The notes under the pieces are model-generated. The model did not search any database and was not told the DNA's origin. It saw nothing but the letters and a program-made list of their open reading frames with translations. Shown one piece after another: positions 3,305 through 6,947 of a DNA stretch of 43,679 nucleotides. Made by a program: the position numbers and the translations under genes. Numbering within the stretch: position 1 is the stretch's first letter; each line of letters begins with the position of its first letter. Origin of the DNA: Moorena bouillonii PNG (GTDB taxonomy: Bacteria > Cyanobacteriota > Cyanobacteriia > Cyanobacteriales > Coleofasciculaceae); the NCBI RefSeq assembly GCF_001942495.1, contig NZ_MKZS01000001.1:8100405-8144083 (forward strand), given 5' to 3'.

Positions 3305-4813
3305 CTAGTCATAACTGGGAGCACGATCGTAAGTGTGAGTGAGGATTTTGAGGCGATTAGCTAATTCTTCACTCAACGCATTCGGTCGATAGCGCCATTG
3401 CCAGTTACCTTCCACGGTACTGGGAAAGTTCATTCGAGCATCTGTGTCCAGACCTAAAATATCTTGCACAGGAATAATCGCTTGGTTGGCAATACTACTG
3501 AGCGCTAATCGGATTAAATCCCAATGGATGCCTTCTTGGCTGACTGATCCGGAGTAATTCATTATAATCTGCTTATCTTCAGCAGAGAGTTTTTTAAACC
3601 AACCCACTGTTGTGTCATTATCATGGGTACCGGTGTAAACCACACAGTTGTGGACATAGTTAAAGGGTAAGTAAGGGTTACTTGATCCCCCACTAAAGGC
3701 AAACTGTAAAATTCTCATACCAGGAAACTGGAAGCGTGAGCGTAATGCTTCTACTTCTGGAGTGATGATCCCTAAATCTTCGGCAATAATTGGCAAATTG
3801 CCCAACTTGTCTTGGAGTACTTCAAAAAATTCTTTTCCTGGTGCCTTAACCCATTCTCCAGTGATGGCAGTTGTTTCTCCTTGCTTGACTTGCCAGTAGG
3901 CCTCAAATCCCCGGAAATGGTCAATCCGCACAATGTCTACATACTCCAAGATAGTTTGGAAGCGTTGTATCCACCATTGGAAGTTATCTGCCTGTAACTG
4001 TTCCCAGTTGTAAACTGGATTACCCCACAACTGACCTGTGGCACTGAAATAGTCCGGAGGCACCCCAGCCATGAGTGTGGGTTCGCCAGTTTCGTGATCA
4101 ATGGCAAAGATTTCCCGATGAGCCCAGACATCAGCACTATCGTGAGCCACATAAATTGGAATATCACCAATAATCTGGATCTGGTGATGGTTGGCGTACT
4201 GTTTGAGAGCTGACCACTGGCAGAAAAACTCAAACTGTAGGTATTTGTAGAAATAAATTTCATGCTGCAATTTCTGCCGCCAATACTCAACTGCTTTGGG
4301 TTGAGCCATAGCAATGTCTCGTTCCCAAGTATGCCAGCTACTCTGGTCAAACGCATCATGAACAGCCATAAATAAAGCATAGTCTTCCAACCAGCTGGCT
4401 TTTGCTTGACAAAATTCTGTAAATTTCTGGTGCTGTTGGGGTGAGGCGTTGGCACGGAAGCGATCGCAAGCTTGGTACAACAGGGGCATCTTGGTTTGAA
4501 TTACCTGATCATAATCCACTGAGTCGAGGGGAAACTCTGGCAGATTGGCAAAGTCTTCATCCTTGAGCAGTCCCTGCTTTTGCAATTGTTCTGGGCTAAT
4601 GAGTAGGGGATTGCCTGCCATGGCTGAGTAAGAACCATAGGGAGAGTTCCCATACCCAATCGGACCAAGGGGCAAGATTTGCCAGTATTGTTGGGCGCTT
4701 TCTGCCAAAAAGTCAATGAATTGATAAGCCTGTAAACCTAAGTCACCAATACCAAAGGGACTGGGTAGGGATGTCGGATGGAGCAAAAGACCACTAGATC
4801 TCGGAAAAGGCAT
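3305..4813 (-). CDS. malQ: 4-alpha-glucanotransferase (amylomaltase, GH77)
   Basis: Transfers alpha-1,4-glucan segments between maltooligosaccharides in glycogen and maltodextrin metabolism; cytoplasmic. The 502-residue length is typical of bacterial MalQ. It opens with the family stretch SSGLLLHPTSLPSPFGIGDL. GDIPIYVAHDSADVWA lies at 216-231. The catalytic triad can be placed by family motif: nucleophile D298 in YVDIVRIDHFRG, acid/base E345 in IIAEDLG, and D398 in YTGTHDNDT. The gene stands alone, with spacers of 431 bp and more than 1 kb to its neighbours. The region just upstream of its start carries an IS605-like end facing away from it. Confidence 0.95.
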   Translation of the reverse strand: MPFPRSSGLLLHPTSLPSPFGIGDLGLQAYQFIDFLAESAQQYWQILPLGPIGYGNSPYGSYSAMAGNPLLISPEQLQKQGLLKDEDFANLPEFPLDSVDYDQVIQTKMPLLYQACDRFRANASPQQHQKFTEFCQAKASWLEDYALFMAVHDAFDQSSWHTWERDIAMAQPKAVEYWRQKLQHEIYFYKYLQFEFFCQWSALKQYANHHQIQIIGDIPIYVAHDSADVWAHREIFAIDHETGEPTLMAGVPPDYFSATGQLWGNPVYNWEQLQADNFQWWIQRFQTILEYVDIVRIDHFRGFEAYWQVKQGETTAITGEWVKAPGKEFFEVLQDKLGNLPIIAEDLGIITPEVEALRSRFQFPGMRILQFAFSGGSSNPYLPFNYVHNCVVYTGTHDNDTTVGWFKKLSAEDKQIIMNYSGSVSQEGIHWDLIRLALSSIANQAIIPVQDILGLDTDARMNFPSTVEGNWQWRYRPNALSEELANRLKILTHTYDRAPSYD

Positions 4814-5150
4814 AAAAAAGCAATCAACAATAATAGTAAGTAAGCCTTACCAAAAAAATTTGGGTTTAAAGCCCCGTCCTTTTAGGACGGCTTTAAGCTA
4901 TAATTTATGGTAGCGGTAAAGCGCATATATAAAAAGCGTAGTCGGTCTAGCGGACAGCTTCTGATCCGGAACCCTGGTAGCAAAAATCCTAAATCTTGTA
5001 CAAATTTGGAAGCTGTAATAAGAGAATTTAAAAATCTCTGCCGGTGCGCTTTGTGTAGGCGAATTAAATTTCCCACGGGTCGCACCGGTTGAAACGCCGC
5101 CGGGCAGACTGTGTATGCTTTCTGAGGGCAAGTTCATTTTTGCCAAAAGG

Positions 5151-5179
5151 TTGACATTACTTACGCGCTAGAGTATTAG
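5151..5179 (+). promoter_or_regulatory. Sigma-70-type promoter ahead of RNA-like region
   Basis: A perfect -35 TTGACA (5151-5156) is followed by a 17-base spacer and TATTAG (5174-5179), matching four of six bases of TATAAT. Transcription would begin near 5186-5188 on the + strand. No open reading frame of plausible length starts downstream, so the promoter appears to serve a non-coding transcript. Confidence 0.5.
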
Positions 5180-5186
5180 TAAAATA

Positions 5187-5629
5187 TGGGTACAGGCTGA
5201 AAATCCGTTCGCGTAGCGTGGCCTTTGGCCTTGGCGCAACCGGGAGAGAGACCCGCCACTGCATGACCTGAAAGTAGTAATGCTCGGAGGGTAGGGAAAG
5301 TCCTCCTTAAAAACCCAATCGTTAATTAGCAGTTAACGTGTGAACCTAGCAGAACACGACTTGAGATAGAAAACGGTACGGCGGGGCACGCCGGAACCAG
5401 GTGAATAGGGAAGAAACGGACTATGCACATGCACTTTCCTGCAAGTAGCCAAACGCTATCGCGAGAATTGCCCGCTGGGTCTACTGTGAACTAAACTGAA
5501 TTCTTGGTCTTGACGGGTCTTTGGTTTAGATATTGCCTACTTTTTGGCGGCGTCAAAGATTAGGACACAGTGGTTTAAGGCAGCTCGTTGATCTAGGAAT
5601 CGCCGTTCTTTCAAGACGGTGAGTGTCAA
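5187..5629 (+). ncRNA. Candidate structured non-coding RNA within IS605-like ends
   Basis: About 440 bases with stops in all frames but many local stems: GCAT...ATGC near 5261-5284, GGAGG...CCTCC near 5286-5305, CGTGT...ACACG near 5336-5358, and CGGCG-GGGCA-CGCCG at 5379-5393. The last stem recurs at 23585-23599 (opposite strand) as CGGTG-GGGCA-CACCG, a compensatory pair change. The region starts at a good promoter and ends in the IS605-like right-end hairpin. It lacks tmRNA and RNase P RNA landmarks. The most natural idea is an omega-RNA-like transcript from a TnpB- or IscB-type element that lost its protein gene; HEARO-type RNA is one candidate. This is inference: I see structure and a promoter, not a family match. 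Confidence 0.42.
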
Positions 5630-5854
5630 GGAGAGCAAGGGATACCAGAATCTTGGCGTTCCAGACTAGTTAAACGGGAGCTGATTGAGTCCACAGCTGA
5701 CCAAATATTTGCCCTGGCTCAACGCGCTTAAATTATATCAATTAAGTATATCAAGCAAGTCAGTTATATCAATAGTTATAGCGTTTCAAACACTTATAAA
5801 GTACATTCCATTTGCTTCCCCCCTCCCACCCTTCCGCCAGCAGTAGGGTGGATT

Positions 5855-5891
5855 CCGACTCCCGACTCCCGACTCCCGACTCCCGACTCCC
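5855..5891. repeat. Heptamer tandem repeat (CCCGACT)n
   Basis: About five copies of a 7-base unit CCCGACT lie between the IS605-like remnant and the 3' end of the HTH gene. One of many period-7 tracts in this window. Confidence 0.9.
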
Positions 5892-5942
5892 TAAAATCTT
5901 CAAAGGCCAAAGTCCCTCACCCAGAAGCCAACGGACTTGATA

Positions 5943-6947
5943 TTAAATAGAATAGACCTGACCATCAATTAATAATCGGGTAATTCCTTTAGCTTGCAAA
6001 TAAGAAGAGGTCTTCTGAAGCATCTGAGCATCAGGAACCTTGATGACTCGCTCAGAACGATTAGAAAAACGCCGTGCTACCCTATGGTTTTCAAATACTG
6101 GCAAGGTTGTCTCTTGAACTTCTTCGTCAGGAATTTGTCCGAGGTCGCTAAACTCATTCAGAGGGCGAGCAATTAACTCCGCCGCTCGGCTGACTACCAA
6201 ATAGCAGGTTTTAGGAAGAGAAGCTTCCGAGAGGGGCAAAATTTCAATGTAAGAACCGCTTTTAGCCACAGAGGTTCTGATGGATTCGTGAATCTCAGGA
6301 TCTGGCAAGTCATCGTCCCAATCTTCATCTAGGTCATCTAGGTCATCTAGATCATCTAGGTCATCTAGATCATCCAAATCCTCCAAATCCTCTAAATCAT
6401 CATCTTGATCCAAATCCCCTAAATCTTCGTCCAACAACTCGGTGAATCTCCTAGTTGCTAGTCCCTTATGCTCAGGTAATAATTGATCTTGGTGATCAAC
6501 AGACTTATCTTCCTCTGAACCTGATGTGGTAATATCAAGTTGTAATTGGGTATGTTGCTCCTCTTCCTCCACTGGTGGTTGAGCAGCCACAGAGGAACGC
6601 TTACGCCGCCGACGTCCATCAGTAGAGGTTGAAGTGAATAAATCACTGACAGATTCTGCTAATGGTTCATTTTTGAGTACAACTAGTGATGATTTAGTGG
6701 CTGTTTCTACCACAGGCTTAGCGGTTTTGACAGTAGAAGAGGAGACATTTTCAGCAGTACGATTAGAGCGCTTTTGTTGAATTAGAGCCTCGTATTCTGC
6801 CTCCAACAAGTTGCTCTTAAGGATACGGCTAATGGTGGAGTTACTAACTCCATAACGGTCAGCCAGCGTTGAGGTTGTCTCTGCTGTCTGTCGATATAGT
6901 TCTAGGATGTCCTGTTTATCGACATCAGATAGTTTTCTTGGACTCAT
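5943..6947 (-). CDS. HTH protein with Asp-rich repeat linker
   Basis: A 334-residue protein of unknown function. Residues 5-55 (KQDILELYRQTAETTSTLAD, then YGVSNSTISRILKS) form a clear helix-turn-helix of the resolvase/transposase-helper type. The middle is low-complexity and very acidic. Around 180-215 a run of Asp-Leu-Asp units is encoded by tandem 9-base repeats (6326-6402), so repeat copy number can vary without breaking the frame. The C-terminal 100 residues look folded, with conserved-looking strands (ESGSYIEIL-like start, then KTCYLVVSRAAELIARPL) and a final ITRLLIDGQVYSI. A DNA-binding regulator is likely; it is not an active transposase because no catalytic domain follows. Its start overlaps the upstream gene's stop as ATGA, indicating translational coupling with the membrane protein. 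Confidence 0.75.
   Translation of the reverse strand: MSPRKLSDVDKQDILELYRQTAETTSTLADRYGVSNSTISRILKSNLLEAEYEALIQQKRSNRTAENVSSSTVKTAKPVVETATKSSLVVLKNEPLAESVSDLFTSTSTDGRRRRKRSSVAAQPPVEEEEQHTQLQLDITTSGSEEDKSVDHQDQLLPEHKGLATRRFTELLDEDLGDLDQDDDLEDLEDLDDLDDLDDLDDLDDLDEDWDDDLPDPEIHESIRTSVAKSGSYIEILPLSEASLPKTCYLVVSRAAELIARPLNEFSDLGQIPDEEVQETTLPVFENHRVARRFSNRSERVIKVPDAQMLQKTSSYLQAKGITRLLIDGQVYSI

Follow-up and report, generated by a model that had tools for sequence, protein, structure and literature searches.

An ORF-less, dispersed IS200/IS605-type element of Moorena bouillonii and its candidate guide RNA

An IS200/IS605-type element that contains no open reading frame (ORF) and is dispersed in the genome has one of its copies at 5151-5629 of the window, as we call the whole analyzed stretch of 43,679 nucleotides from the marine, filamentous cyanobacterium Moorena bouillonii PNG. 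Judged by sequence comparison, the element is probably non-autonomous, its sole product being a large guide RNA and both TnpA and TnpB being borrowed in trans.

Parts, copies and promoter of the element

The window copy and its surroundings are composed as follows.

4847..4850, + strand: TTAC target of a different ORF-less element, whose left-end hairpin is at 4851-4894
4847..5137, + strand: left part of this different ORF-less IS605-ended element, fused to the RNA element near 5138
5151..5156, + strand: −35 box TTGACA of the putative RNA promoter
5174..5179, + strand: −10 box TATTAG of the same promoter, 17 nt after TTGACA
within about 5185-5190, + strand: predicted transcription start of the window copy
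5190..5629, + strand: RNA body of the window copy, 440 nt including a 32-nt insert, start set at GTACAGG
5190..5350, + strand: 5' domain of the RNA
5208..5239, + strand: inserted palindrome TTCGCGTAGCGTGGCC..., lineage-specific, in a variable loop (the G001 orthologue L176 is without the insert)
5305..5315, + strand: CCUUAAAAACC, 5' strand of helix 5, partner of GGUUUAAGG
5320..5338, + strand: helix 6, a covarying hairpin
5344..5350, + strand: ACCUAGC, helix 7, partner GCUGGGU at 5474-5480
5375..5398, + strand: putative omegaRNA core stem-loop GGTACGGCGGGGCACGCCGGAACC
5450..5480, + strand: putative second omegaRNA core segment AAACGC..GAGAAUUGCCCGCUGGGU
5572..5580, + strand: GGUUUAAGG, 3' strand of helix 5
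5600..5629, + strand: IS605-type right end, with hairpin 5600-5622, terminal GTGTCAA and element end 5629
5630..5649, + strand: predicted guide, from the flanking gene (in G002 and G003 TTAT lies directly 5' of the matching sequence)
5630..5731, + strand: what remains of an ADP-ribosylglycohydrolase gene 3' end; in G003 (L211) the gene continues unbroken across this point

When window 4820-5800 was compared by BLAST with its own genome (G000, 8.3 Mb), 52 matches were obtained from the best 40 of 636 candidates scored. Many of these are other short repeats, and at least about 17 copies of the RNA element, the window included and some split into two rows, are among the same best 40 of 636; most correspond to window about 5136-5630 at 66-90% identity. 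It follows that the RNA of the window belongs to a dispersed repeat. In three Moorena sister genomes a query of 366 nt produced 49, 22 and 24 match rows, equivalent by hand count to at least about 38, 14 and 10 places (best 40 candidates in each); some of the rows are short core-only matches, probably to tnpB loci. The copy number per Moorena genome thereby ranges from about 10 to nearly 40. By motif scan of the collected loci we obtained 73 distinct copies with a recognizable start (GTACAGGCTGAAAAACCG and variants) and right end, 70 from Moorena together with L119, L148 and L149; bodies containing N (e.g. L014, L032), unrecognized start or end motifs and start-to-end distances above 1.2 kb fall outside this set. 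In most copies the RNA measures about 350-460 nt.

The family extends beyond the genus. When genome contigs were scanned with a degenerate pattern of the 5' domain, 23 stretches matched; Hassallia byssoidea, a Nostocales MAG and Leptolyngbya foveolarum contributed one apiece and Moorena the other 20. The 5' domain was also turned into a covariance model (R1, built from 33 sequences), which matched at least 9 of 386 cyanobacterial genomes and at least 6 of 142 genera, own genome and one sister included, which is a lower bound as the filters were strict and the best 8 candidates per genome were scored. Among 14 copies from outside Moorena, ten have a right end recognized by the scan and span 351-500 nt, L221 and L224 have a near-identical 3' terminus that the scan missed, the 3' part is absent from L058, and L161 runs beyond the available stretch.

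Several insertions were seen in and around the copies. No fewer than 14 of the 73 copies have the palindrome GTTCGCGTAGCGTGGCC..GGCGCAA (window 5208-5239) at this one variable loop, as if the loop tolerated or attracted it. A short inverted repeat, GGTGCGC..GGGTCGCACC (window 5029-5087), is dispersed in the own genome and is also found inserted into or beside RNA copies (L014, L033). L012 and L013 have in common an insert of about 105 nt (TTAGAAGTTACCGTAAGAAG...) within the core stem-loop, and the tnpB of L095 holds an insert resembling it. Tandem CGACTCC units at window about 5855-5895 recur at many sites in all four Moorena genomes. The 1.7-kb insert of L031 is a nested transposase-like ORF of 541 aa (named by eye) in the opposite direction, and was ruled out as a partner gene for this reason.

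An initial annotation, made from the letters of the window alone, had described a TTGACA-17-TATTAG promoter opening a 440-base stretch with no usable frame, and comparison of copies agrees with both points. At least 10 of 12 matches to TTGACA-N16..18-TATAAT were found within 60 nt 5' of the RNA in 55 of the 73 copies, as against 1.2% of dinucleotide shuffles; the other 18 have fewer than 10. Where nine or more positions match (60 copies), the −10 box ends 7-11 nt 5' of GTACAGG. The conservation of these motifs shows a predicted sigma70-type promoter in most copies. No ORF of at least 60 aa overlaps window 5150-5629, and in the 27 copies of at most 430 nt the longest open stretch has a mean of 83 codons vs. 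80 in shuffles (maximum 137 vs. 119). The hidden frameshifted protein that the annotation had named as an objection to its own reading did not appear. A tnpB gene was seen neither inside copies from outside Moorena nor in the 73-copy scan, which reaches up to 1.2 kb from start to right end, so that a gene-bearing copy would escape it.

Structure of the RNA and its relation to TnpB guide RNAs

Folded as a single sequence, the window copy is no more stable than its shuffles (z −0.72), and it is the comparison of copies that reveals a structure. After removal of L155 and L196, whose right ends the scan had misplaced, the 73-row set gave a 71-row alignment, which was trimmed of columns present in less than half of the rows; 52 of the 71 were kept as non-redundant, and from these RNAalifold predicted a multi-branched structure. 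A wider set of 33 sequences was assembled from copies of at most 426 nt, L148 and seven distant copies, and 30 of these, from several genera, make up alignment A2 (L165, L038 and L139 were omitted); the window copy is represented there by its G001 orthologue L176. The A2 structure comprises 63 pairs in 11 helices. In these pairs 92.3% of the cells are paired vs. 83.6% in shuffled alignments, 184 cells are double-changed vs. 57.8, and the covariation score is 0.298 vs. 0.148, values reached by 0 of 500 shuffles in each case. Further pair types stand out less, their count being reached by 39 of the 500 shuffles. Slid versions of the structure are at most 50.3% paired, an excess that is partly by construction, the 63 pairs having been designed from RNAalifold on overlapping sequence sets. 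Exceptions within the pairs are G-U in 161 cells vs. A-C in 22, which fits an RNA read from the + strand.

Support is uneven between the helices. Helix 5 (CCUUAAAAACC with GGUUUAAGG) has zero double changes and is supported by its conservation; in helix 3, 75.8% of the cells are paired, and 14 of the 30 sequences leave one helix 4 pair open. In the RNAalifold prediction on A2, columns 81-90 with 283-292 compete with helix 7, and columns 356-358 with 402-404 compete with helix 5. Long-range helices connect the 5' domain to the core. TnpB guides are characterized by a pseudoknot in which the terminal nucleotides pair with an upstream strand; on A2, RNAalifold suggests a pairing of GUC of the terminal GUGUCAA with GAC in the 5' domain, at 3' letters that are nearly invariant. 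The local stems proposed by the annotation are thus borne out by comparison of copies rather than by folding of the window sequence, and a lack of stem conservation, the second objection it had raised, did not occur. In window 4700-5960 no Rfam family was recognized at E values up to 10. Four loci with cleaner copies gave no match to the RNA at E≤1, the sole hit being an unrelated snoRNA model outside the RNA (E 0.5). No Rfam match to a group I intron, group II intron or known ribozyme was obtained, and likeness to group II intron domain I or to HEARO was rejected on the same searches (window E≤10, four loci E≤1). The annotation's statement that tmRNA and RNase P landmarks are absent agrees with the lack of any ARAGORN or Rfam match, and the HEARO/IscB family that it had proposed to check finds no support in window 4700-5960.

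The own genome has 112 hits to the TnpB C-terminal domain (PF07282) and 20 to RRXRR (IscB-type). At several tnpB loci we found the stem-loop GTACGGTGGGGCACACCGGAAC, followed by AACGCTT-GGGGAGA and then ..TGAACCAAGAATCCCC-hairpin-GTGTCAA, in an order identical to that of the RNA and spanning about 135 nt. Where the gene could be read (L081, L092, L093), the stem-loop lies inside the 3' end of the tnpB ORF. A profile of the RNA 3' half matched 8 of 49 own loci (29 tnpB and 20 iscB-type), all eight being tnpB, with a best E of 1.4e-10, and seven of the eight contain both core segments in order at E below 0.05. The locus L077 had been left out because it contains RNA copy L011; its tnpB is on the opposite strand and was rejected as a partner of L011, being probably a chance neighbor. 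Applied to 30 tnpB loci from other genomes that carry the RNA, the 3' profile gave five matches, four of them weak (E 8e-4 to 0.012) and one strong (L260 of G004, in sister genus g2, E 5.7e-10); L260 has the same variant stem GTACCGCAGGGCATG as the RNA of the sister species G015. In contrast to the 3' half, the 5' domain of roughly 160 nt matched 0 of the 49 own tnpB/iscB loci and 0 of the 30 foreign tnpB loci, 79 in all. The right-end hairpin (5600-5622, then GTGTCAA to 5629), which the annotation had correctly assigned to the IS605 type, is common to tnpB elements.

These comparisons show homology of the RNA 3' part to the omegaRNA/reRNA core of resident tnpB genes, limited to short core segments. 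Since the ordered core segments are shared and the 5' domain matches none of the 79 loci compared, the element has the look of a tnpB element whose gene gave way to a new RNA domain and whose guide scaffold grew larger. Of the two options offered by the annotation, an omega-RNA-like transcript is supported by the homology to tnpB-type omegaRNA, and a new RNA on an IS605-type element by insertion between TTAY and TCAA ends and by the lack of an Rfam family. The accompanying suggestion that the transcript had lost its TnpB/IscB partner is misleading, because the extra conserved 5' domain (0 of 79 loci) and the usual promoter of its own indicate an established RNA-only lineage rather than a leftover.

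Insertion sites, predicted guide and rearrangement

The element boundaries read TTAY^...TCAA^. When the joined flanks of ten own copies, those of the about 17 with a placeable left end, were compared with the three sister genomes, eight gave a contiguous match across the joint (L003, L004, L007, L008, L009, L010, L017 and L032); L005 and L012 gave half matches only, with no contiguous empty site in these genomes. The left flanks of ten copies, placed by eye, end in TTAY in nine cases and in TTTC in one, and a regex scan recognized 35 of 73 left ends with patterns that mostly contain TTAY. As TTAY is built into both the patterns and the placement by eye, it is the empty sites that test the target motif independently. 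Insertion is thus target-specific and without duplication, at IS605 ends of an element without transposase, and comparison with the empty sites shows precise insertion, the TTAY target motif and the element ends.

To its right the window copy is flanked by the 3' end of an ADP-ribosylglycohydrolase gene, whose G003 counterpart matches PF03747 at E 1.4e-57. In G003 and G002 this gene reads TTTTAT/GGAGA.. at the insertion point (slash) and is uninterrupted there, with other damage further upstream, and in G001 an element with the same right flank has a complete left end, the middle of the gene being missing. Because TTAT and the right flank are continuous in G002 and G003, TTAT followed by the predicted guide corresponds to the empty donor joint, which is also the expected target of guided TnpB cleavage as described in PMC8612924. 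By its position in the sequence, the end of the element at ...GTGTCAA would make the flanking DNA the guide.

A rearrangement near 5138 has cost the window copy its left end, and the sequence to the left of this point is that of a different ORF-less IS605-ended element. In G002 this other element stands beside malQ, between TTAC and TCTCAA/GACATTATC, at a site that is empty in G001. Of the IS605-like ends described by the annotation, the right end stands and the left end, at 4851-4894, belongs to the element of the malQ site. The N-terminal part of the ADP-ribosylglycohydrolase gene adjoins another RNA copy, L031 (G000 C1:2403500-2407500), 2.4 Mb into the contig. The two gene parts are more than 2 Mb apart, each flanked by an element copy, so the window copy and L031 appear to have recombined with each other, with loss of the window copy's left end; this suggests chromosomal rearrangement through recombination between copies. 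A composite element could still make use of the left end at 4851. As a separate observation, the second ORF-less element (window 4847-5137; L206 in G002) is roughly 350 nt long by eye in G002 and carries an AAACGC..GGGGAGA segment resembling that of the omegaRNA core; a second free-standing RNA of the guide type may lie here. No further own-genome copy of its interior was present among the best 40 of 636 candidates.

Interpretation and known systems

A trans-acting guide RNA appears to be the most economical reading of these data. In such a scheme transcription of the RNA would start at its own promoter and run past the right end into the flank, so that the 16-20 nt next to TCAA would serve as the guide, and a TnpB from another element would bind the core. 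A Y1 TnpA made elsewhere would excise the element at TTAY/TCAA, TnpB would cut the resealed donor joint (TTAY plus guide), and repair from the sister copy would restore the element, which could spread while borrowing both proteins. The 5' domain, with its long-range helices to the core, would replace the lost mRNA context, stabilize the RNA or compete for TnpB; it may act in competition with, or in place of, a protein. The dispersal of the copies, core homology, promoter, strand-specific structure, empty sites, the continuity of TTAT and right flank in G002 and G003, and possible partners in the same genome speak for a trans-acting guide. As to partners, the own genome has 18 Y1 transposase hits, several being fragments, and three TnpBs with a related core (L081, L092, L093) keep the three RuvC acidic motifs; this statement on integrity is confined to these three, as the ORF table had picked neighboring genes for L087, L094 and L095. 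TnpB was present in all 12 other RNA-bearing genomes tested, which is weak evidence because TnpB is common in these genomes anyway. Against a trans-acting guide stand its length, 2-3 times that of the TnpB-bound ISDra2 guide RNA (given as about 150 nt bound in PMC8612924 and at most 247 nt expressed in PMC8612924 and PMC10097598), and the processing of TnpB omegaRNA from tnpB mRNA (reported in PMC10278001), impossible here in cis. Further points against are that the homology is confined to the core, that one of five foreign tnpB matches is strong, that two of ten insertions are without an empty site, and that 18 of 73 copies have fewer than 10 of 12 promoter matches.

Half of the 14 copies outside Moorena (L148, L149, L219, L220, L221, L222 and L228) have a divergent ORF of 45-53 aa between left end and promoter, and the three searched match NikA-like/ribbon-helix-helix (RHH) families. 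The ORF starts near the RNA promoter, and its product might for this reason regulate it. The RNA could act without a resident TnpB, with a dedicated protein, perhaps this RHH, or the RNA itself as effector, the core then reflecting ancestry and a transposon end. The 5' domain and two internal expansions account for the larger part of the RNA and show conservation between genera (L176 and L229 are 54% identical), long-range helices tie this domain to the core, and bulky RNAs stand in for protein parts in IscB/IsrB according to PMC10097598. We nevertheless regard such an effector as unlikely, since the core segments and the exact TCAA end match local tnpB genes, the RHH ORF is absent from the other seven distant copies and has little room in Moorena, where 34 of the 35 copies measured have 80-143 nt between left end and RNA, and Rfam recognized no known ribozyme. 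A shade more doubtful is that the RNA took over much of the work of the guide-RNA nuclease, its 5' domain and expansions forming a new RNA machine that works with a dedicated effector or does part of TnpB's job itself, while the TnpB-style guide and ends were kept. The large additions to a TnpB guide core, which could block activity, and the strong own promoter of most copies would suit an antagonist: by binding TnpB without supporting cleavage, or by retargeting it, the RNA would protect or silence parent-element copies; this we hold to be distinctly improbable, as the copies are themselves mobile and their exact 3' terminus keeps a natural guide next to it, which a decoy would not need beyond transposition.

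Two other histories fare worse. One is an inert MITE with a drifting interior, its structure serving TnpA recognition of single-stranded DNA; according to PMC7290912, a transposase acting in trans can mobilize IS605 elements that consist of ends only, such as PATEs. The interior covariation, the preference for G-U over A-C (161 vs. 22) and the conserved promoter have no evident TnpA role, which makes this very unlikely. That we see a decayed tnpB element which lost its gene, as the first option of the annotation implied, we consider least credible. Its left end, promoter position and right end do resemble those of tnpB elements such as L095, but the 5' domain is missing from all the tnpB loci compared and recurs in other genera with compensatory change.

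TnpB is the ancestor of the Cas12 gene-editing enzymes, and the place where such a gene-editing nuclease would be expected is taken here by a large RNA family that covaries strongly and matches nothing in Rfam 15. If the trans-acting guide RNA does use TnpB, this would show a guide RNA becoming a free-standing gene with its own promoter, a step of the kind proposed in PMC10097598 for the origin of the stand-alone tracrRNA gene, and guide-RNA-only parasites could drive transposon spread; if TnpB is not used, the RNA would be a novel RNA machine. An ORF-less, promoter-led long TnpB-type guide RNA was not found in the titles and abstract openings of the literature covered, which mostly excludes subscription journals.

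A close known system is the TnpB omegaRNA/reRNA of IS200/IS605 elements of the ISDra2 type. Its 3' terminus likewise coincides with the element's right end, with a terminal hairpin, TCAA, a flank-derived guide (predicted in the window family) and a TTAY-type target, and the window family shares with it the homologous core stem-loop and AAACGC..GGGAGA segment. The window family differs in having no tnpB ORF, a promoter of its own in most copies, a 5' domain and internal expansions; with 351-460 nt in most copies it exceeds the about 100-250 nt of TnpB omegaRNAs, and, with no tnpB in the window copy or in the copies scanned (up to 1.2 kb from start to right end in the 73-copy set), it does not overlap a tnpB 3' end, from whose mRNA TnpB omegaRNAs are cut. 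RAGATH-18, a conserved orphan RNA, was later shown to be a TnpB guide, and 64% of its members adjoin an IS607 tnpB, as stated in PMC11061315. It is another RNA of another transposon family, and the 5' domain of the window family stands at none of the tnpB/iscB loci compared.

HEARO, the IscB omegaRNA, is a large structured RNA of an IS605-superfamily element that sometimes occurs without an ORF; stand-alone IscB omegaRNAs are found in Ktedonobacter, and the IscB guide is at the 5' side of the RNA. The window family is alike in combining a large structured RNA with an IS605-superfamily element and unlike in the lack of an Rfam match and in its predicted guide 3' of the RNA. IStrons, which join a group I intron to IS605 and include ORF-less copies (as described in PMC4227781), also combine a structured RNA with IS605 ends; in the window family no group I intron is recognized by Rfam and the promoter is inside the element just 5' of the RNA, unfit for splicing from a host transcript. 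Finally, PATEs and other IS605-type MITEs have IS605 ends, no transposase and movement in trans. As far as PMC7290912 describes them, PATEs have palindromic ends only, the one presented there keeping its right end together with the final 58 nt of tnpB, whereas the element studied here is filled by a conserved, promoter-led structured RNA.
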